A program made the position numbers and the translations under genes. Source: a virus. From it: a DNA stretch of 28,267 nt. This document shows positions 3,001-24,723 of this stretch, piece by piece. The stretch is taken from the IMG/VR virus record IMGVR_UViG_3300017613_000821, positions 1 to 28,267 of that record, one strand, 5' to 3'. Positions within the stretch are counted from its first letter, which is position 1. Every line of letters begins with the position of its first letter. The notes under the pieces are model-generated. The model was not told the origin of the DNA and did not search any database. It was given only the letters and a program-made list of their open reading frames with translations.

Positions 3001-3035
3001 TATTTTACTCCCTTAAAAAATTATACTTTCTTATA

Positions 3036-3047: not shown

Positions 3048-4979
3048 TTAAGCGATAGAACTTATTGAACTTGAACTTTCGCTATGACTAGAGCTTGAAG
3101 ACGAAACGGAAGTTGAAGATATAGAGCTTGAAGAACTTGATACGCTAAACGATGAGGAAGAAGAGGACGAAAAACTTGAACTGGACAATGAAAATGAAGA
3201 AGAGCTTGACGATGTTGAACTGGTACTCTTACTTGACGATGAAGAACTAAAAGAAACCGATGAAGAAGATGAGCTAACTGATGAAGAAGATGATACGCTG
3301 GAGCTTGAAGAGCTTACACTTGAGGAACTTGCACTTATTGATGAAGATGAAGACGATTCACTAGAACTGGAAGAACTTAACGAAGTAGAAGAAGATGAAA
3401 TCGAAGAGCTTGAACTTGAAGTCGAAGAACTTGAGCTTGAAGATTCAGAACTTGAAGATTCAGAACTTGAAGAAAAACTCACAGAACTTGAACTGGTACT
3501 CTTACTGGAACTTGAAGAAGATACACTTGAGCTTGATTCTGAAAAACTAGAGCTTGAGACAGATGAAGATGACGAAGAACTTGACGAAGACTTCGATGAC
3601 TCACTAGAACTCGACTCACTTTCAGAGCTTGACGATGTTGAAGAGTAACTTGAAGAGCTTGACGATATTGAAGAAGAAGAAGATGAAGATACACTAAAGC
3701 TTGAGCTTGAAGATACGCTGGAGCTTGAACTTGATCCAGACGATTGACTGGAGCTTGAGCTTGAGATACTGAAACTTGAACTGGACGAAGAACTTGAAGC
3801 AGTAGGAACAAGTTTTTCTATTCCATAATTAAACACTACTCTTGCTGTCTCTGGTTTATACAATTCAGAGCATTTAGAGTAGAAAAGCAATTCATCATTT
3901 ATATTAAAAATACCTACTTCCCTTATAGTTAAACCTTCTCCCCAAGGAACTATAAAATCAAGAAAATAACTACCATCATTTTCATAAATTCTCCAATAGC
4001 TACCGCTAGCTGTAGGAGACTCAAGATCATTACTAGTGAAAGGATTCCATTCAGCAGGAGCCGATCCTACTGGAGATTCACCGTCACCAACTTTCCAATA
4101 TCCAAGGTTTGGGCCTATACCCATACTCATAATATCTTCTTCTTCTTGTGAAAGATATATAACATTTCTTTCTAGATAAATAAAATGAGCAGTTCCAATA
4201 ACAGGATAATCAAATTCTATTCTTACATTATCAGCATCTTCAATATATATTTCACTTGGAAAAATATGATTCCTACAATCATCATAAACTTGTACTAACA
4301 AAAAATATGTATTCATATCATGTTCAATATTCCATGTGCTAGCTTCTACAGTTTGTTCAAAAATCAAATCTGATCTTCTTAGAAAAGCCGCACCAACTAA
4401 GCATGGCTCTATACTTGCGCTTGAAGAAGAAGTTGAAGAAGATGAGCTTGAATAGGAACTCAATGAACTGCTACTTGAACTCAATGAACTGCTACTTGAA
4501 CTAGAACTCAATGAAGAAGAACTTGAACTTACACTAGACGAACTTGAGCTTGAAGAAGAACTTGTAGAACTAGAACTTGTACTTGTACTACTTGAACTTG
4601 AATATGATGTTCCTTCATGTTGAATTTCAATCAATGCTACATAACCAGATGGGCCAAAGGTTTGCATTTCATAATTTAATAAAGTTAGATCCCCACCTGT
4701 AGGAATTACTGTAAGCGTATTTGGAGAAACACCAGTACTAACAGAAGTTCCACCAGGTACTCCATTTATTTTATAATTAATTCCTATTTTAAATGGCATA
4801 TTAAATGTCGTTCTAATTGCTCTGACATCCATCCCAATTGACCATGAACCTTTTGGTTTAAAATGTTGCTGAACACCAACTGCATCGAACTCCCATCTAG
4901 GGCCAGCAGGATTCCACGCAATTCCACCACCACTTGGAGTCCAAAATCTAGGATCTGTTATTGATTGCCATATTGCCAT
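3048..4979 (-). CDS. Poly-serine tail fibre protein ending in a long serine tail
   Basis: A 643-residue protein. Residues 1-124 (MAIWQSITDPRFW) form a beta-rich N-terminal domain. A first Ser block spans about 125-186. Residues about 187-390 hold two recognisable fibre modules. One (STWNIEHDMNTYFLLVQVYD, then a PVIGTAHFIYL strand) also occurs in the 1882-residue tail protein. The other (GYWKVGDGESP, YWRIYEND, GLTIREVGIFN, SELYKPE) resembles N-terminal modules of phage tail fibres. Residues about 392-643 are almost all serine and the protein then stops, ending SSISSIA, with no C-terminal domain. An AAGGAAA ribosome binding site precedes the ATG. It may be a fibre whose tip is supplied by another polypeptide, or one shortened by repeat loss; neither can be decided here. 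Confidence 0.75.
   Translation of the reverse strand: MAIWQSITDPRFWTPSGGGIAWNPAGPRWEFDAVGVQQHFKPKGSWSIGMDVRAIRTTFNMPFKIGINYKINGVPGGTSVSTGVSPNTLTVIPTGGDLTLLNYEMQTFGPSGYVALIEIQHEGTSYSSSSSTSTSSSSTSSSSSSSSSSVSSSSSSLSSSSSSSSLSSSSSSLSSYSSSSSSTSSSSASIEPCLVGAAFLRRSDLIFEQTVEASTWNIEHDMNTYFLLVQVYDDCRNHIFPSEIYIEDADNVRIEFDYPVIGTAHFIYLERNVIYLSQEEEDIMSMGIGPNLGYWKVGDGESPVGSAPAEWNPFTSNDLESPTASGSYWRIYENDGSYFLDFIVPWGEGLTIREVGIFNINDELLFYSKCSELYKPETARVVFNYGIEKLVPTASSSSSSSSFSISSSSSSQSSGSSSSSSVSSSSSFSVSSSSSSSISSSSSSYSSTSSSSESESSSSESSKSSSSSSSSSSVSSSSFSESSSSVSSSSSSKSTSSSSVSFSSSSESSSSESSSSSSSTSSSSSSISSSSTSLSSSSSSESSSSSSISASSSSVSSSSSSVSSSSSVSSSSSSVSFSSSSSSKSTSSTSSSSSSFSLSSSSFSSSSSSSFSVSSSSSSISSTSVSSSSSSHSESSSSISSIA
3050..3805 (-). 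repeat. C-terminal poly-serine tract, about 250 codons
   Basis: The longest serine tract in the window. Single Val, Ile, Phe, Thr, Lys, Glu, Tyr or Leu residues interrupt runs of mostly 4-8 Ser. Serine codons alternate between the TCN and AGY families. Confidence 0.9.
4415..4605 (-). repeat. Internal poly-serine linker of the 643-residue fibre
   Basis: About 62 codons of Ser with scattered Thr, Leu, Val and Tyr, joining the N-terminal domain to the middle fibre modules. Confidence 0.88.
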
Positions 4980-4991
4980 AATTTTCCTTAA

Positions 4992-5252
4992 TTACTGATT
5001 AACACAATCATCAGGCCAGCTTATTATCATTACTTCATTTGATGAGTCATTTATATTACAAGGCCAAGTTTTACATTCCACTAAATCCCAATCTGGACAA
5101 GCAGAACTTGTACTACTAGAAGAAGACGAAAAAGAAGTCGATGAAGAAGATGACGATTGACATTCGGCTATAGGCCCATTGTATTCAAAGGAATCTTCTT
5201 CTAATACTTCCAATGTATCAATGTCTATTTTTATGTGGTTATAAATTTTCAT
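4992..5252 (-). CDS. Small Cys-containing protein with a short serine linker
   Basis: An 86-residue protein in three parts. Residues 1-31 (MKIYNHIKIDIDTLEVLEED, ending YNGPIAEC) form a compact domain. Residues about 32-50 are a Ser/Thr/Phe linker. Residues about 51-86 contain four more cysteines (C52, C60, C65, C83), suggesting disulfides or a metal site. It sits between the Cys-cluster gene and the 643-residue fibre, so a tail-associated role is plausible but unproven. The late-promoter box begins only 13 bases upstream of the ATG and no Shine-Dalgarno sequence is visible, so a transcript from that promoter would be almost leaderless for this gene. Function not recognised. Confidence 0.65.
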   Translation of the reverse strand: MKIYNHIKIDIDTLEVLEEDSFEYNGPIAECQSSSSSSTSFSSSSSSTSSACPDWDLVECKTWPCNINDSSNEVMIISWPDDCVNQ

Positions 5253-14691: not shown

Positions 14692-16503
14692 CTAAATGAT
14701 TGTCTTTAATACTTTCTTTCCACCTTTAGCTAGTTGAGTATAATCGGCTACTCTTCTAGGATTAAATCCACAAGCATTAGGACATGTTTTACAATGAGCG
14801 GTAGAGCAACATATTTTAGAAAGTACCTTATTCCAATTCGCCTTTGGATGGACTTTCTTCATTCCTTCTATTGCTTGTTTCCAGCCTTGACTTCCAGGAC
14901 TCATGTTCTGATAAATATCAGCATTTTTCATTCTACTGGATTTAGCCGATCCGAAATGTAGTAAAGTAATAACATCAACGGCAGGATCTTTAGAATAATT
15001 AATTGCTTCTTTTGGATTTCTTGCTACTACTCTTATGTTGACGTTGCCTGGATAGGATCTTTTCAAATTTTTAGCTATCGCTAATTTGAATCCCATTTGC
15101 TCATCTACAGACATGTTTATATTAAATACTGGTTTACCTTTCAATGGCCCCTCTGTAAACACACGACCAGCGTACTTCTTAACGAATCTCTCTTGTTTAG
15201 TAATAGCTTTAAGTTGAAGCCCTACCAATTGAGCGTCATCAATGATCCTTTCTATTTCTTTATCAGTAGCTTCGTCTTCTATATAATCACCAGAAGAGAA
15301 AAATCTTAATCCACCCATTCTATTAAGATCAGATACTTGTTTTAATCCAGATTTAGTTAATTGAAAATTTCCGTCTTTATCTTGTTTAAAAGTTCCGTCT
15401 TTTTCTTTATTCAACCACTTCTTAAAAGTATCTTGATATCTAAGTCCTCTCTTCTCAGCTTTTGCAAGAAAGTATTTAGGATGTTTCTTTGCTACTTCTC
15501 TTGCAGACTCTACGTAACAATAAGCACATGTAGGATTATTAGCTTCGGTAACTTTCAATTTATCCGCTCTATTCTGTAAAGTTTTAACCCTTGAATCTTC
15601 TGCTCCTGCTTCAATTGCTTCTTGTAAATCTTTATTAGCTTGTGACCAGTCCTGCATCATTTCTAAAAGTTTTTCTCTTTTAGGACATACTGTAGATATA
15701 TCTACCGAAGATTTTGTTTTTGTATTACCACCAATAGCACTCCATTGTTTAACACAATCTTCAAGTTCTTTTTGACTATTATACTGCTTTGCTCTTATCT
15801 TAAATAGATACTCTAAATATGCGTCCTCTGGAAACCATCCCTTACCAAATTTATCTTTGGCCCATTCAAATAACTTACTAGTAAATCCATCTTTGCTTCT
15901 TCCAAGACTAGCTTCAAAATCAACTATGCTATTAAATCTCTTCATCACATCATTTAATTTTGCTTCTCCTTCCTTCTGTTCGACTTGCCAATTCTTATAC
16001 ATTTTTATTATATCATTAGCGAATCTCTGTTTTTCCTTATAGCTTTGAAGAGCATCAGAATATAGCTCTTTTGGATCTCTACCAAATGAAGCTTGTCTTC
16101 CCCATCCTTTACCTGTTACATTAGGAGACTCAAGACCATGAAGAATATATTTACCGATAAAAGATTTTTTCTCTAAATCATCCAAAGCATGAAATGACTT
16201 CTTTGATTTTTTAGTAATATCTTTAAAAGCCTTTTCTACTTCTGCATCCCATTCACTTTTCGGCTGTACATCCTTTGAAGCCTGAAATTCAGCGGCTTTG
16301 AGTTTTCTATTAGCCTTTTCTTCTCTAGATATTTCATTAAGTAAATTAAAATGACTTACCTCATCCTCTGATAATTTTCCATCTACAGGATAATAGACAT
16401 CTTCAAGTAAGGGATGTTCTAAAAACAGCCAAGTATTTTGACCTAGTATAATAGCTTCATCTATCCGTTCTGGTTCTTGTCTCATATAATCGTTTAAATT
16501 CAT
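14692..16503 (-). CDS. Cys-rich protein with radical-SAM/Gp88-like motifs
   Basis: A 603-residue protein. The first ~260 residues are helical and highly charged and match nothing I know. Then come VCPKR (C273), PTCAYCYVESAR (C326, C329, Y330), LRFFSSGDYIEDE (403-406 is SSGD), QLKAITKQERF, an NINMSVDEQ strand and DVITLLHFG. A C-terminal cluster holds five cysteines at 565, 566, 571, 574 and 578. CxxCY followed by a (S)GD strand and alternating beta/alpha units resembles phage Gp88-like and DUF5131-type proteins and radical-SAM folds. The canonical CxxxCxxC is absent: the first Cys is about 53 residues before CAYC. The C-terminal cluster could hold a second Fe-S centre. It overlaps the CCA-enzyme stop by four bases. 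The reaction is unknown. Confidence 0.55.
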   Translation of the reverse strand: MNLNDYMRQEPERIDEAIILGQNTWLFLEHPLLEDVYYPVDGKLSEDEVSHFNLLNEISREEKANRKLKAAEFQASKDVQPKSEWDAEVEKAFKDITKKSKKSFHALDDLEKKSFIGKYILHGLESPNVTGKGWGRQASFGRDPKELYSDALQSYKEKQRFANDIIKMYKNWQVEQKEGEAKLNDVMKRFNSIVDFEASLGRSKDGFTSKLFEWAKDKFGKGWFPEDAYLEYLFKIRAKQYNSQKELEDCVKQWSAIGGNTKTKSSVDISTVCPKREKLLEMMQDWSQANKDLQEAIEAGAEDSRVKTLQNRADKLKVTEANNPTCAYCYVESAREVAKKHPKYFLAKAEKRGLRYQDTFKKWLNKEKDGTFKQDKDGNFQLTKSGLKQVSDLNRMGGLRFFSSGDYIEDEATDKEIERIIDDAQLVGLQLKAITKQERFVKKYAGRVFTEGPLKGKPVFNINMSVDEQMGFKLAIAKNLKRSYPGNVNIRVVARNPKEAINYSKDPAVDVITLLHFGSAKSSRMKNADIYQNMSPGSQGWKQAIEGMKKVHPKANWNKVLSKICCSTAHCKTCPNACGFNPRRVADYTQLAKGGKKVLKTII

Positions 16504-17933
16504 GTTATACTCCTAATATATTCATCTATTTTATTTTTATCAGTAACATCATTATCCATGATCCAATTTACTGTCTGTCTAATCACTTCACCAAGCTTCG
16601 GCCCTGCTTTCATTCCTGTAAGAGCCATGACATGATTACCATCGACTAATTTTATTCTCTTCTTTACTTCTCCTACATTTCCGTATTTCTCTTTAATCTT
16701 AACAGCCTTTTCAACTATCTTTTCAAACTCTCCAGCATGTCTAAATACATCTCCTCTGGAAAATTCATCTGCTCGACCTACAGCTACAAGTACATCCCAA
16801 TTATCATCATTGACTAGTTTAGCTATTTTAGATGGACGCATATCAAGGATCTTATGAAACTTCATATGATTCCCAACCGAAAAAACCATAGCATCCCTTT
16901 CTTTATTACTCATCTTTAACCTGTCTGCAATTGCATTGACTAGTTTTATACTTTTTTCTGCGTGTCCGTAGTATGTTGGGAATCCATGTTTTTTGTGAGG
17001 GGCAAAGGTGACTCCTTTTCCGACATCATGCAAAAGTATAGCAAGATTTTTAATCGGATCTTTAGTATTACTCTTTTTAAGTGCCGCAAGAACATGACTA
17101 TATACTGTTCCTCCTTCTCCTCTTGTCTCTGGATGAAACTGTAAATTTTCCCTAAACCATTTCAGATTCATCACTTCTGGTAAGACATGCCTTAATATTC
17201 TTAACTCATCTAAAATTTTAATGTAGTCAGCAAACTTTTCACCACTCTGAGCCGCTGATTTTAGTAGCTCTTCTTTTACTCTTTCTGGAGCAAGACTCAA
17301 AATATTTGGTGAAAGTTTTTGAGCCGCTTTCTTAGTCTTAGGATCTATCTCAAAATCTAACTTGGAAGAAAATCTTGCGAGTCTCATCATTCTCAAATAG
17401 TCTTCTCCGAATCTCTTTAGCGGATCACCTACAGTTTTCAAAACCTTATTCTTTATATCTCTTCTACCGTCAAAGTAATCTATGATCTCACCTTTAGCAT
17501 TTAGACCCATTGCGTTTATAGTGAAATCCCTTCTTCCTACATCCTCTTCGAAACTTCCTGTAACCTGTACGGATTCAGGTCTTCTACCGTCCATGTACTT
17601 ACCATCTGTTCTAAATTGAGCTACCTCAAAATCCATCCCACCTTCTTTAGCTACAACTATCCCAAAGTCCTTAGACTTTCCTATGTCATAGGTCTTAAAA
17701 AGCCGCTCAAGCTCACTTATCGGCATATTAGTAGCAATGTCTACATCATGGGGTTTCAGGTTTCCTAAGATGATATCTCTAACCGATCCACCCACAATAT
17801 AAGCTTTGTATTTCTTCTTGTTTATCTTATTCAAGATAGAAACTGCCGCTTTAAGTTCCTTGTTTCTCCGTATGTAGTCTTGCCAGTCTTTCAATTGTTG
17901 TCTTTCTTCTACAAGATAGTTTAAAAATTTCAT
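16500..17933 (-). CDS. cca: CCA-adding-type tRNA nucleotidyltransferase/poly(A) polymerase with HD domain
   Basis: A 477-residue protein. Class II nucleotidyltransferase motifs are clear: YIVGGSVRDIILG (45-57) with the metal-binding DVD at 63-65, RRDFTINAM (134-142), and DPLKRFGEDYLRMMRLARF (170-188) binding the nucleotide. A C-terminal HD domain is present (YSHVLAALKKS, then LAILLHDVGKG with HD at 302-303). Cellular members add or repair CCA at tRNA 3' ends. The first ~40 residues are extra: MKFLNYLVEERQQL resembles a T4 capsid-targeting leader with LVE as a possible prohead-protease site. GAGG precedes the ATG. With the Rnl1-like ligase in this window it fits tRNA repair or maintenance. CCA-adding versus poly(A) activity cannot be told apart here. 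Confidence 0.85.
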   Translation of the reverse strand: MKFLNYLVEERQQLKDWQDYIRRNKELKAAVSILNKINKKKYKAYIVGGSVRDIILGNLKPHDVDIATNMPISELERLFKTYDIGKSKDFGIVVAKEGGMDFEVAQFRTDGKYMDGRRPESVQVTGSFEEDVGRRDFTINAMGLNAKGEIIDYFDGRRDIKNKVLKTVGDPLKRFGEDYLRMMRLARFSSKLDFEIDPKTKKAAQKLSPNILSLAPERVKEELLKSAAQSGEKFADYIKILDELRILRHVLPEVMNLKWFRENLQFHPETRGEGGTVYSHVLAALKKSNTKDPIKNLAILLHDVGKGVTFAPHKKHGFPTYYGHAEKSIKLVNAIADRLKMSNKERDAMVFSVGNHMKFHKILDMRPSKIAKLVNDDNWDVLVAVGRADEFSRGDVFRHAGEFEKIVEKAVKIKEKYGNVGEVKKRIKLVDGNHVMALTGMKAGPKLGEVIRQTVNWIMDNDVTDKNKIDEYIRSIT

Positions 17934-21892: not shown

Positions 21893-22212
21893 TATACTTT
21901 CTGCTCTGCTATTCTTTCAAGATCTTTGACTATTGCGTAAACAAAATCATCTCTTAATACTTTTATAATATCACCTTCTGATAATTCTTCGAATGGATTT
22001 ACTATATTGTTTAAGATAGCTAATGCCCACCATATGTATTGATTATTATAAAGATTCCATGAAATATTATCCCAAAATTCTCCGTTAGCCACCTGATAAG
22101 TATTGAAGTAAGCGGTTTCAGTAAAGACGCTATCATTCAAAATATAGCTTCTAAAGATATTCATAAACTTTGTTTCTCTATCTTCATCCAGCAAGATATT
22201 AAAAAGTCTCAT
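21892..22212 (-). CDS. 53: Baseplate wedge protein, gp53/LysM-like
   Basis: A 106-residue protein. The middle (ETAYFNTYQVANGEFWDNISWNLYNNQYIWWALAILNNIVNPFEEL) matches the short gp53-type wedge proteins; a LysM-like end follows (LSEGDIIKVLRDD). T4 gp53 is longer and helps join wedges around the hub. The start MRLFNILLDEDRE resembles the leader of other genes in this operon, with LDE as a possible protease site. The ribosome binding site is weak; an internal Met at residue 17 is an alternative start. It overlaps the hub gene by one base. Confidence 0.75.
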   Translation of the reverse strand: MRLFNILLDEDRETKFMNIFRSYILNDSVFTETAYFNTYQVANGEFWDNISWNLYNNQYIWWALAILNNIVNPFEELSEGDIIKVLRDDFVYAIVKDLERIAEQKV

Positions 22213-22274
22213 GAAACTATAATTGTTTATTTGTTTACCTGTAAGCTCAAAAAAATTTTCGTCTGTATATTCTG

Positions 22275-22397
22275 TTACAGCGATAGCTCCTCCTCCGTTA
22301 TCAACCCTGCTTCTACTTCTCTATGACAATTAGCACAAAGGATAACGCATTTTTCTATTTCTTCATTGAGAAATGTGTCAATTAATTTATCATCCAT
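22275..22397 (-). CDS. 40-residue HNH-like fragment
   Basis: An ATG overlapping the preceding stop (TAATG) with GGAG about 8 bases upstream opens a 40-codon frame. It reads MDDKLIDTFLNEEIEKC, then VILCANCHREVEAG, then LITEEELSL. C-x4-C-x2-C-H-x-E is the typical C-terminal half of small HNH endonucleases, but the first His and the rest of the fold are missing. It is either a remnant of a homing endonuclease or a small zinc-binding protein now translated with the structural operon. Confidence 0.6.
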   Translation of the reverse strand: MDDKLIDTFLNEEIEKCVILCANCHREVEAGLITEEELSL

Positions 22398-22774
22398 TAG
22401 ATTTTCTCCATACCTTTTGAAATGCTTTCATCCATATCTGGAGTTAACATTCCTTCCGCTTGTAATACCTCTCTAGCGAACTGTAAATTATGCTGTCTGG
22501 TACGCCTTGAGATGTCTGGTTTCGAACCATACCGAATTGCTTGGTGATAGTTGCCTTGTCCAGTAAAGTACGTCATAACACCGTCCTCTGACTCCCTCAT
22601 TTGAATTCCAGAATCACCGTCATCTCTAATCAACATCTTCTCCATTTTCTTACTCTTTTTTCCTTGATCCTTATCGGCTTTATCTAGAGATCTTGCATAT
22701 ACCTTATCAATGGTTTCGACTTCTTTATACTTAGGTTTTTTTTGCAAATACTTATCCATTTTGTCACTTTCCAT
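22397..22774 (-). CDS. Charged small protein at the head of the structural operon, unknown
   Basis: A 125-residue protein. The N-terminal half is Lys/Asp-rich and probably helical or disordered (MESDKMDKYLQKKPKYKEVE, DKADKDQGKKSKKMEKML). The C-terminal half is more ordered (GVMTYFTGQGNYHQAIRYGS, RTRQHNLQFAREVLQAEGML). Its ATG lies inside the end of a 35-codon TTG-started frame and follows GGGAGG at a suitable distance. It overlaps the HNH-like fragment by one base. No family recognised. Confidence 0.6.
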   Translation of the reverse strand: MESDKMDKYLQKKPKYKEVETIDKVYARSLDKADKDQGKKSKKMEKMLIRDDGDSGIQMRESEDGVMTYFTGQGNYHQAIRYGSKPDISRRTRQHNLQFAREVLQAEGMLTPDMDESISKGMEKI

Positions 22775-22871
22775 TTGACTTTTCCTCCCTGTGAATCTTC
22801 TTGCTATTTTTTCTATTATAATTCTTAGATTTTATTTGATTTTTGCGTTTTAATCTCCAATTAGGTTTCAA
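22764..22871 (-). CDS. 35-residue basic peptide with TTG start
   Basis: A TTG 8 bases after AAGGAGAG opens a frame reading MKPNWRLKRKNQ, then IKSKNYNRKNSKKI, then HREEKSNGK. It stops by overlapping the ATG of the 125-residue gene. It sits 40 bases downstream of a late-promoter box with nothing between, so it would be the first frame of the structural operon. Its charge suggests nucleic-acid binding. Evidence is the strong ribosome binding site and the coupling overlap; the non-ATG start and size make it uncertain. Confidence 0.45.
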   Translation of the reverse strand: MKPNWRLKRKNQIKSKNYNRKNSKKIHREEKSNGK

Positions 22872-22910
22872 ATATAACTCTCCTTAGAAGAATACAATGC
22901 TACTAATTAT

Positions 22911-22918
22911 TATTTATA
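22911..22918 (-). promoter_or_regulatory. T4-type late promoter box TATAAATA, head of structural operon
   Basis: The minus strand reads TATAAATAATAATTAG about 50 bases downstream of the intrinsic terminator and 40 bases before the first frame of the baseplate operon. It likely starts the late transcript for the genes to the left. Confidence 0.65.
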
Positions 22919-22966
22919 TATTTTTAAAGTGGAATTTGAAAAAAATGTAGGAAAAATGGTGAGATA

Positions 22967-23016
22967 ATAAAAAAAAGAGCGATAAAGGATAACCCTAAAA
23001 ATCCTCTATCGCTCTT
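22967..23016 (-). terminator. Intrinsic terminator
   Basis: On the minus strand AAGAGCGATAGAGGAT pairs with ATCCTTTATCGCTCTT. The 16-bp stem is complete with one G-U pair, has a loop of about 10 bases and is followed by eight T. On the plus strand the same position is an A-C mismatch and the T tract is interrupted, so it works for leftward transcription. Confidence 0.9.
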
Positions 23017-23200
23017 CTTTCTTCTTTTGGCTCATGTGCCACCCAAAAAACACATGACACCAACGTAACTTGCTCCATGCCACATCACTAACAAGGAACA
23101 AGTCTCCTAGTCAATATCGGGGATGAAATTTGACTAGGGGCGAACCATCCTTCCCCAAGGTATGGTTCAATGACCTAGCGGCAACTAGGTCGGGCATACG
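22967..23200 (-). ncRNA. Structured RNA: five hairpins followed by a terminator, downstream of the acidic peptide gene
   Basis: About 230 bases without a gene fold, on the minus strand, into a series of hairpins. H1 is 23191-23172 (GACCTAG/CTAGGTC). H2 is 23168-23142 (GAACCAT and CCTT/AAGG closing a GGGG loop). H3 is 23138-23106 (CCTAGTCAA/TTGACTAGG). H4 is 23103-23068 (ACTTGTTCC/GGAGCAAGT, one G-U). H5 is about 23060-23029 (TCATGTG/CACATGA, extendable). The terminator follows. The G-U pairs in H4 and the terminator become A-C mismatches on the other strand, which fixes the transcribed strand. It could be a stable 3' UTR, a processed phage small RNA or a replication or packaging element. It does not fit a tRNA cloverleaf. 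Confidence 0.55.
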
Positions 23201-23350
23201 TTAATCTTTAGTGGAAAAAATATCTTGCGGAGTACCACTAGAGAAAAGATCTTGGTCATGTCCAGTATCGAATACTTCTCCATTAGCTGGAGAATTTTGT
23301 AATTCATCTGGATCTATAACAAATTCGTCAATGTCAAAAAAATCGTCCAT
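23201..23350 (-). CDS. 49-residue acidic protein
   Basis: The ATG follows AAGGAG with an 8-base gap, an excellent ribosome binding site. The product starts MDDFFDIDEFVIDPDELQ, continues NSPANGEVFDTGHDQDLF and ends SSGTPQDIFSTKD: very acidic, with no cysteines or membrane segment. It is the only frame between the dyad-flanked promoter candidate and the structured RNA. Small acidic phage proteins are often early inhibitors of host proteins or DNA mimics; here that is only a guess. Confidence 0.7.
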   Translation of the reverse strand: MDDFFDIDEFVIDPDELQNSPANGEVFDTGHDQDLFSSGTPQDIFSTKD

Positions 23351-23583
23351 GATAAACTCCTTCATTTTTAAGGTGAATTGTGATTGTCTACTATATACTT
23401 ATCACAATTATAATGCAATGTCAACAACTTTTTTAAAGCTAGCCCAATCTACCCTAATTGTATCATTAGGTTTTCTAGAATTCTCCCTAATGAATCCAGT
23501 CAATCGGAACTATGTGAGAACCACAATCCCTTATAACTCTTCCAGCTAATGGCCTGGGCGTACAGGAATAGATCAGAAAAATT
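23351..23583. other. Non-coding gap between two small genes
   Basis: About 230 bases with no convincing frame on either strand. It holds the promoter/dyad described separately and a small hairpin (CCTAAT/ATTAGG, about 23450-23470) without a T tract. The remainder shows nothing I can name. Confidence 0.5.
23376..23424 (-). promoter_or_regulatory. Possible sigma70-like promoter within a 9-bp inverted repeat (operator candidate)
   Basis: On the minus strand a perfect TTGACA (23424-23419) is followed, after 15 bases, by GATAAG (23403-23398). This is a weak -10 with sub-optimal spacing. AATTGTGAT and ATCACAATT form a 9-bp inverted repeat at 23409-23401 and 23384-23376, enclosing the -10 and expected start point. 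This suits a repressor site or a 5' hairpin. It lies 26 bases upstream of the acidic peptide gene. Confidence 0.4.
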
Positions 23584-23895
23584 TTAATTCTTCATCCATT
23601 GTTTTTTAATTTTACGATTCTTCCATGATTTGCGAGTATCGACATCTCCCCTTTGATAATCATCCCATGCATCGGGAAGATTGAAAGGGCTTCTTTTAAG
23701 TCTTCCGTATCCTTCACTAGCAAACCACAAGCGTTTTTCCTGAGTGCTTTTAGGAATTTTATACCAGTAACGAAATCGGTAGTCACGTTTACAAATAGTA
23801 GGAACTGGATCTACACGAAAACGAAAGTAGATATATTTTCCTGAGAATCTAGTGTGCCAACGGCTGTCAAAAAGTTTTTCTCCGTATTCAATCAT
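23584..23895 (-). CDS. Basic, aromatic-rich small protein, unknown
   Basis: A 103-residue protein started at the ATG at 23895, which follows GGAGG by 5 bases; an in-frame ATG four codons upstream lies inside a palindrome and has no ribosome binding site. The sequence is rich in Arg, Lys, Tyr, Phe and Trp (WHTRFSGKYIYFRFRVDP, CKRDYRFRYWYKIPKS, ending SWKNRKIKKQWMKN) and predicts beta strands with a basic tail. Nucleic-acid binding is plausible. A sigma70-like promoter and a leader ORF lie upstream, so it is probably expressed early. No family recognised. Confidence 0.65.
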   Translation of the reverse strand: MIEYGEKLFDSRWHTRFSGKYIYFRFRVDPVPTICKRDYRFRYWYKIPKSTQEKRLWFASEGYGRLKRSPFNLPDAWDDYQRGDVDTRKSWKNRKIKKQWMKN

Positions 23896-23903
23896 TATGA
23901 CCT

Positions 23904-23927
23904 CCATTAAGTAAATTTACTTAATGG
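23904..23927 (-). promoter_or_regulatory. Perfect 24-bp palindrome overlapping leader-ORF stop and adjoining the next ribosome binding site
   Basis: CCATTAAGTAAA followed by its exact reverse complement. In RNA it would give a roughly 10-bp stem with a 4-base loop. Its 3' arm ends with the first two G of the GGAGG that serves the 103-residue gene, while its 5' arm contains the UAA of a 10-codon frame. This is the layout of a translational attenuator, or the palindrome is a protein-binding site in DNA. Confidence 0.65.
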
Positions 23928-23953
23928 ATGTCGATATCAAATTTGTACGGCAT
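23921..23953 (-). CDS. 10-codon leader ORF
   Basis: AAAGGAG lies 6 bases before an ATG that encodes MPYKFDIDIH, stopping within the 24-bp palindrome. It has a better ribosome binding site than many genes here. Likely a leader peptide whose translation affects the hairpin before the 103-residue gene. Confidence 0.5.
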   Translation of the reverse strand: MPYKFDIDIH

Positions 23954-24026
23954 TTTGATCTCCTTTATTCTATGGGGTTGCTTGGCATCCCAAAGGTCGA
24001 ATATCGTCTTTTTTGATTATATTACC

Positions 24027-24055
24027 ATCCTATCATACTATAATAGGCCTGTCAA
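24027..24055 (-). promoter_or_regulatory. Sigma70-like promoter TTGACA-17-TAGGAT
   Basis: On the minus strand a perfect -35 (24055-24050) and a 4/6 -10 (24032-24027) are separated by exactly 17 bases. They lie just after the glycosyltransferase stop and about 70 bases before the leader ORF. A TATAAATA box at 24067-24060, inside the last codons of the glycosyltransferase, might add late expression but could be chance. Confidence 0.6.
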
Positions 24056-24723
24056 GTATTATTTATAATTGGTTTAATAAAATCCTCAAAAACACGTTTA
24101 TACTTGACAACGTAATCTTGCTGTGATCCAGCCGATATATCATTCTTCGTACTGGAAGCAACAAAGCTTGCTTCTGGACAAGGTACTCCTAGATATCCCA
24201 TTTTAAAGGCTTTCAGAAGAAACGCATAATCCAATAGCCGTTTATATTTATCATCTGTCACTAGCCCTACCTTTTCAATAACGCTGGATCTAAACAATGA
24301 ATTTGAGCTTATGTAATTAGCTTGTAATAACCTGTCGATATCAAATGGATCTGCATTGAATTTCTGGTTTACATGTCCTTTAAATTCAAAGGACGCATAC
24401 GCATATCCCACCTGATCAAACTCCGCATATTTCTTGAGGGTCGCTACAAGCTTGTCTATCATTCCTCTACCCATCGTAATATCTCTATCTACCATAAGAT
24501 AGAATGGGGGAAGAGCCTTGAAGCTCTTGTACCACTTAATAGCTTCCAAGGCATTTACAGGAATATTATTATCTCCGTAACTTTTAACCCATGTATATCT
24601 AGTCTTGTTTCTCTTCAATGAAACTTTCGTTTCTCTACTTACCTCATGATTAGGAAGTAACGGAGTTACGACTAGTACTTCTGGATCTTTACATTCTGTC
24701 ACCACACAAATCTTATTCCTCAT
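24052..24723 (-). CDS. GT2-type (GT-A fold) glycosyltransferase
   Basis: A 223-residue protein. LPPFYLMVDRDITMGRGMIDKL carries a DxD-like motif (D79-R80-D81) after a hydrophobic strand, the metal/nucleotide-sugar site of GT-A enzymes. It is preceded by NIPVNALEAIKWYKSFKA, as in family 2 proteins. A later acceptor-side section reads ANYISSNSLFRSSVIEKVGLV. It has no membrane segment, so it is probably cytoplasmic. It starts inside the last codons of the sugar-nucleotide enzyme gene (11-base overlap), so the two are made together and may act in sequence. The acceptor is unknown: host surface glycan, virion protein or DNA are all possible. Confidence 0.75.
   Translation of the reverse strand: MRNKICVVTECKDPEVLVVTPLLPNHEVSRETKVSLKRNKTRYTWVKSYGDNNIPVNALEAIKWYKSFKALPPFYLMVDRDITMGRGMIDKLVATLKKYAEFDQVGYAYASFEFKGHVNQKFNADPFDIDRLLQANYISSNSLFRSSVIEKVGLVTDDKYKRLLDYAFLLKAFKMGYLGVPCPEASFVASSTKNDISAGSQQDYVVKYKRVFEDFIKPIINNT

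Follow-up and report, generated by a model that had tools for sequence, protein, structure and literature searches.

The DNA analysed here (the window) is a viral record of 28,267 bases, in which nearly all genes lie on the minus strand. Family scans characterize it as a T4-type contractile-tail phage, with a gp5-like spike, gp6, gp25, another baseplate wedge protein and a PAAR tip, and they also identify a T4-type RNA ligase among the window proteins. The closest named phages infect Rhizobium, an assignment based on one tail protein at ~25% identity; no DNA similarity of the window to phage and plasmid records was found, and genome-collection scans returned no relatives. A tRNA nucleotidyltransferase/poly(A) polymerase-type enzyme is encoded within the baseplate operon (16500-17933, minus strand), and predicted virion-region proteins contain long serine-rich runs (3048-5252, minus strand, and 600-1700).

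Upstream of the baseplate operon, a sigma-70-type promoter is followed by a short acidic ORF, by an array of hairpins that begins directly after the ORF stop codon and ends with hairpin H6 and eight U, and by a T4-type late promoter (Table 1). This order indicates an early message with a single gene, of which the array forms the 3' UTR. Bounded by an ORF stop and an intrinsic terminator within one predicted transcription unit, the array can be placed by position with the 3' UTR-derived phage noncoding RNAs. The early promoter is shared in position and shape by 11 of 12 relatives (it was not seen in L024), and its conservation upstream, together with the late promoter downstream, supports the proposal of an earlier note that the region separates an early unit from the late operon. 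The tiny acidic gene described in that note is present, with its start moved to 23350 (49 aa), which is the most likely start because all homologues begin there and a Shine-Dalgarno sequence precedes it. The acidic ORF matches no family in Pfam or PHROGs; its homologues in L007-L024 exhibit a repeated motif, (F/W)DTG..xDLFxSG..xDIFxTK, which is kept through distant relatives. Peptides similar to the product of the basic ORF beyond the late promoter can be read in L009, L022, L023 and L024. Another strong match to a sigma-70-type promoter (TTGACA-17-TAGGAT, 24055-24027, minus strand) is located upstream of a 107-aa ORF, with a further TATAAATA box beside it at 24067.

Table 1. Predicted features of the early unit and of the start of the late operon, in the direction of transcription
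Feature	Position	Strand	Remarks
Sigma-70-type early promoter	23396..23424	-	TTGACA-17-TAAGTA, TGA ahead of the second hexamer
Acidic ORF, 49 aa	23201..23350	-	MDDFFDIDEFVIDPDEL...FDTG..QDLFSSG..QDIFSTKD; 54 aa from ATG 23365 in the ORF list
Single-stranded UAUGCCC	23192..23198	-	Adjoins H1; (U/A)UGCCC kept in the window, L016, L017, L018, L022, L023
H1	23172..23191	-	GACCUAG/CUAGGUC hairpin; stem nearly invariant, loop length variable
H2	23142..23168	-	GAACCA/UGGUUC hairpin; cap CCUU-GGGG-AAGG (GGGG tetraloop)
H3	23106..23138	-	CCUAGUCAA/UUGACUAGG hairpin; loop has UCCCCGA, complementary to H2 loop UUGGGGA
H4	23067..23104	-	Sequence poorly conserved; hairpin also here in L016, L017, L018, L022
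H5	23027..23063	-	Loop UUUUUUGGGUGG conserved; stem covarying
H6, intrinsic terminator	22969..23020	-	Long hairpin, then eight U
T4-type late promoter box	22911..22918	-	TATAAATA; serves the baseplate operon; in 13/13 homologous intervals
Short, very basic ORF	22764..22871	-	TTG start (LKPNWRLKRKNQIKSK...); immediately downstream of the late promoter

The minus strand of segment 22960-23210 folds with an energy of -106.4 kcal/mol, against -63.8 +/- 4.6 for dinucleotide shuffles (z -9.35, with 0/200 shuffles as stable), and when 150-base folds were slid along the entire window, the four most stable on the minus strand all fell at 22951-23250. The plus strand of the same segment also folds well, because any set of inverted repeats must, only more weakly (-80.9, z -6.71); without the terminator, the array gives z -5.98 in the sense and -4.1 in the antisense orientation. 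The predicted structure comprises six hairpins (23191-22969) with 71% of the bases paired, which bears out the six consecutive hairpins of the earlier note, including its GGGG-capped stem, recognizable as H2 closed by CCUU/AAGG, and its strong terminator, H6, with 20-nt arms that are 90% complementary in a repeat search and a loop of 10 nt; a simple terminator scan missed this hairpin. The note had further claimed that G-U pairs in two stems are valid only on the minus strand: the asymmetry is real (12 such pairs on the minus vs 2 on the plus strand), but more than two stems contribute to it. Nothing in the array resembles tRNA, as had been stated (ARAGORN detects no tRNA or tmRNA gene in the window), no ORF of at least 50 aa lies inside it, and it stays unclassified, with no match in the window at the gathering score among 4227 Rfam families and only sub-threshold matches when the relatives were scanned at E up to 10. 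Rarity of CTAG does not set the CUAG stems apart, as the tetranucleotide is about as frequent in this genome as a Markov model predicts (105 seen vs 104 expected). Two further pairings were considered and set aside: a closing helix that encloses H1-H4 (AACGU/ACGUU in the fold of the window), which is not consistently present in the relatives, and a long-range pairing of UUGCCC with GGGUGG in the H5 loop, which is possible on paper and relies on wobble pairs.

Relatives were gathered from IMG/VR with the tail protein, a 125-aa protein and the acidic protein as queries. Apart from duplicates, they added six distinct versions of the slot, each of them structured (L016, L017, L018, L022, L023 and L024). 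The series H1-H2-H3-H5-H6 is common to the window, L016, L017 and L018, the last three of which have one additional hairpin at the 5' end; in L023 the hairpin order is that of the window with a different H2, L022 has no H2, and L024 has retained the CUAGUCA/UGACUAG hairpin together with the terminator, its other hairpins being largely different. The sense-strand folds of all seven arrays without the terminator are beyond chance (z -3.0 to -5.98), and in all seven the sense strand folds more stably than the antisense strand. All seven sequences share an identical CUAGUCA/UGACUAG inverted repeat around a variable loop. By this comparison, the predicted modules of the array turn over between relatives. 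In the additional 5' hairpin, TTCGATTTAAAT of L017 (~1322-1342) is the exact reverse complement of ATTTAAATCGAA of L016 (~3010-3032), so that the loop looks as if inverted, and both strands of the stem differ in sequence; a tRNA-like nature of this hairpin in L017 and L018 found no support from the tools. In L018, the sequence from ~5853 on, directly after the late promoter, runs into an ORF that resembles a homing-endonuclease gene (MRTLSEEHKKNISKSLIGRKRG...).

Six more distant relatives (L007, L008, L009, L011, L012 and L014) possess the acidic ORF, a terminator-like hairpin and the late promoter without the array, and the interval from the ORF stop to the late promoter measures 96-214 nt with a GC content of 0.27-0.36, compared to 272-350 nt and 0.40-0.49 where the array is present. 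In the still more distant L065-L070 group the downstream operon is kept, and no acidic ORF was recognised. A search across IMG/VR with a 20-base H2 pattern matched only two contigs, both already in the set. The predicted array is restricted to one clade of uncultured T4-type phages, and its absence from distant relatives makes it dispensable for this type of phage.

Covariation in homologues, the check that the earlier note had suggested, is present. As a whole-array MAFFT alignment misplaced the hairpins, the helices were aligned by hand, which favours the structure; two-sided matched changes were observed in 15/42 of the pairs so aligned, distributed over H1 (1/8), H2 (2/6), H3 (2/9), H5 (3/7) and H6 (7/12), with the weight of these numbers limited by the hand alignment and by a sample of no more than seven distinct sequences, of which four are close. 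With a counting tool, 7/29 pairs of H1, H3 and H6 in six sequences and 5/13 pairs of H2 and H5 in four sequences were changed on both sides, and the covariation scores (0.244 vs 0.163 +/- 0.022 and 0.551 vs 0.176 +/- 0.074, respectively) were not reached by any of 500 shuffles in either case, while slid pairings gave low values throughout. A less biased check than the hand alignment is provided by a covariance model built from the four closest sequences only: over 321 kb its next best match is L002/L023 (E 0.008), followed by the L003/L004/L005/L019 group (E 0.3), which carries the array of L022, each at the matching position; the contigs searched contain no convincing second copy of the array. 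The H1 and H3 stems vary hardly at all, which sequence constraint at the DNA level would produce likewise. Because H1, H2, H3, H5 and H6 show matched two-sided changes, we regard the fold predicted on the minus strand as that of a conserved structured RNA.

The loops of H2 and H3 offer an additional contact. UUGGGGA of H2 can form seven pairs with UCCCCGA of H3 in the window and in L017, six in L016 and five in L018, with UCCCC constant within an otherwise variable H3 loop. In L023 both loops are changed and six pairs are retained (ACAGCGCA with AAGUGCUGA; chance of 0.001 with permuted loops and 0.04 with random composition), in an H3 shape that lies 2.2 kcal/mol above the minimum, and L022, which has no H2, also has no CCCC in H3. 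With this one independently changed case behind the claim, the two loops may pair as a kissing contact. The spacing of 3 nt between H2 and H3 in the window would make an intramolecular kiss sterically awkward, and a real contact may therefore be intermolecular. We consider it a long shot that a small early phage RNA forms oligomers in this way, each molecule pairing head to tail through its H2 loop with its neighbour's H3 loop; if it did, this would be an RNA-only or RNA-protein assembly acting in host takeover and a new RNA family.

We propose, with about an even chance of being right, that the array is a clade-specific 3' UTR RNA domain that ends an early transcript, protects it, and probably remains afterwards as a stable noncoding RNA. 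Host RNA polymerase would start at the sigma-70-type promoter near 23424-23396, transcribe the acidic ORF first and the hairpins after it, and stop at H6, in a unit of ~420 nt. Judging from the anatomy of the locus, the array and H6 very likely serve termination and insulation, keeping early transcription out of the baseplate operon, whose late promoter begins ~50 bases beyond H6. The message is likely to be protected by the array as well, since a compact structure, possibly held by the pairing of the H2 and H3 loops, would shield the RNA from 3' exonucleases. The array would then most likely outlast the decayed or severed ORF part as a stable noncoding RNA of ~200 nt, which would bind a protein or an RNA via the conserved loops, above all U6GGGUGG of H5. 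This last step, which we prefer and regard as probable, is favoured because the loops have been selectively kept; on the other hand, the more distant relatives do without the array, and that of L024 is mostly of different hairpins.

The same anatomy could also be read as a plain 3' UTR and insulator, in which the hairpins only stabilise the mRNA of the acidic gene and block read-through, with no separate RNA product or action in trans, a reading that we consider rather unlikely. It agrees with the presence of a terminator-like hairpin behind the ORF of the distant relatives as well, which makes insulation the ancestral job, and the variable number and sequence of the hairpins (as in L022 and L024) would be expected if structure alone mattered, but those distant relatives manage with one terminator, and selectively kept loops (U6GGGUGG of H5 and the H2/H3 complement) are not needed for pure protection. 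Fast turnover of hairpins between relatives, as in an arms race, might instead indicate an RNA decoy against host defence or a host RNA-binding protein, with hairpins that imitate host RNA; the promoter makes early expression likely, and the phage also possesses a T4-type RNA ligase, an enzyme of anti-nuclease tRNA repair in T4 (PMC3014915). Such a decoy appears improbable to us, as the array has no repeated unit and no likeness to tRNA or Rfam families, and no defence-family protein was found among the eight window proteins scanned.

The oriE region of T4 (repEA/repEB) is positioned among baseplate genes. With its small early gene and early promoter near baseplate genes, the present locus resembles that region, where the origin apparently requires an early promoter and has the small gene repEA close by (PMC3016281). 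A similar DNA-level element, in which replication near the baseplate genes would be primed by the early transcript and proteins would bind the inverted repeats, would agree with the invariant CUAGUCA/UGACUAG, but we hold it to be highly improbable, as a search of 22200-24100 revealed no 12-nt iterons at even spacing, the direct repeats there being two-copy and chance-like, GC skew shows no switch at the array, and the G-U asymmetry and the compensatory changes indicate RNA; unlike in oriE, the conserved feature is an RNA fold.

The preferred reading, a 3' UTR domain that persists as a noncoding RNA, has counterparts among phage RNAs. UTR-derived phage noncoding RNAs have been reported by Grad-seq in phiKZ infection (PMC8545117), and the array resembles them in kind, being assigned to the untranslated region of an mRNA; the phiKZ RNA derived from a 5' UTR is described as highly structured (PMC8545117), whereas the array is the predicted 3' UTR of a small early gene, terminator-ended and covarying. 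RNAC and RNAD of T4 are likewise small RNAs of unassigned role in a T4-type phage (PMC3014915), but they lie in a tRNA region, and the window has no tRNA. GOLLD and ROOL are hairpin-rich RNAs of phages and prophages, of unknown function, with kissing loops and covariation (PMC12286853); the array shares with them the richness in hairpins and the covariation, while kissing loops are here only possible, and its length of ~230 nt contrasts with that of GOLLD members, often >800 nt. By the Rfam models, which give no match, the array is neither GOLLD nor ROOL.

As judged by its predicted structure and position, the array is an uncatalogued RNA family of a known kind, the structured RNAs derived from phage UTRs. 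In a review of 2010 it was stated that no small trans-acting regulatory RNA from T4 had been functionally characterised, and that the genomes of related phages might suggest candidates (PMC3014915). The array is such a candidate, uncatalogued, covarying and located in a defined early unit, for which the relatives without it provide a natural comparison, and the 3' UTR of this small early gene appears as a site where structured RNA modules come and go.
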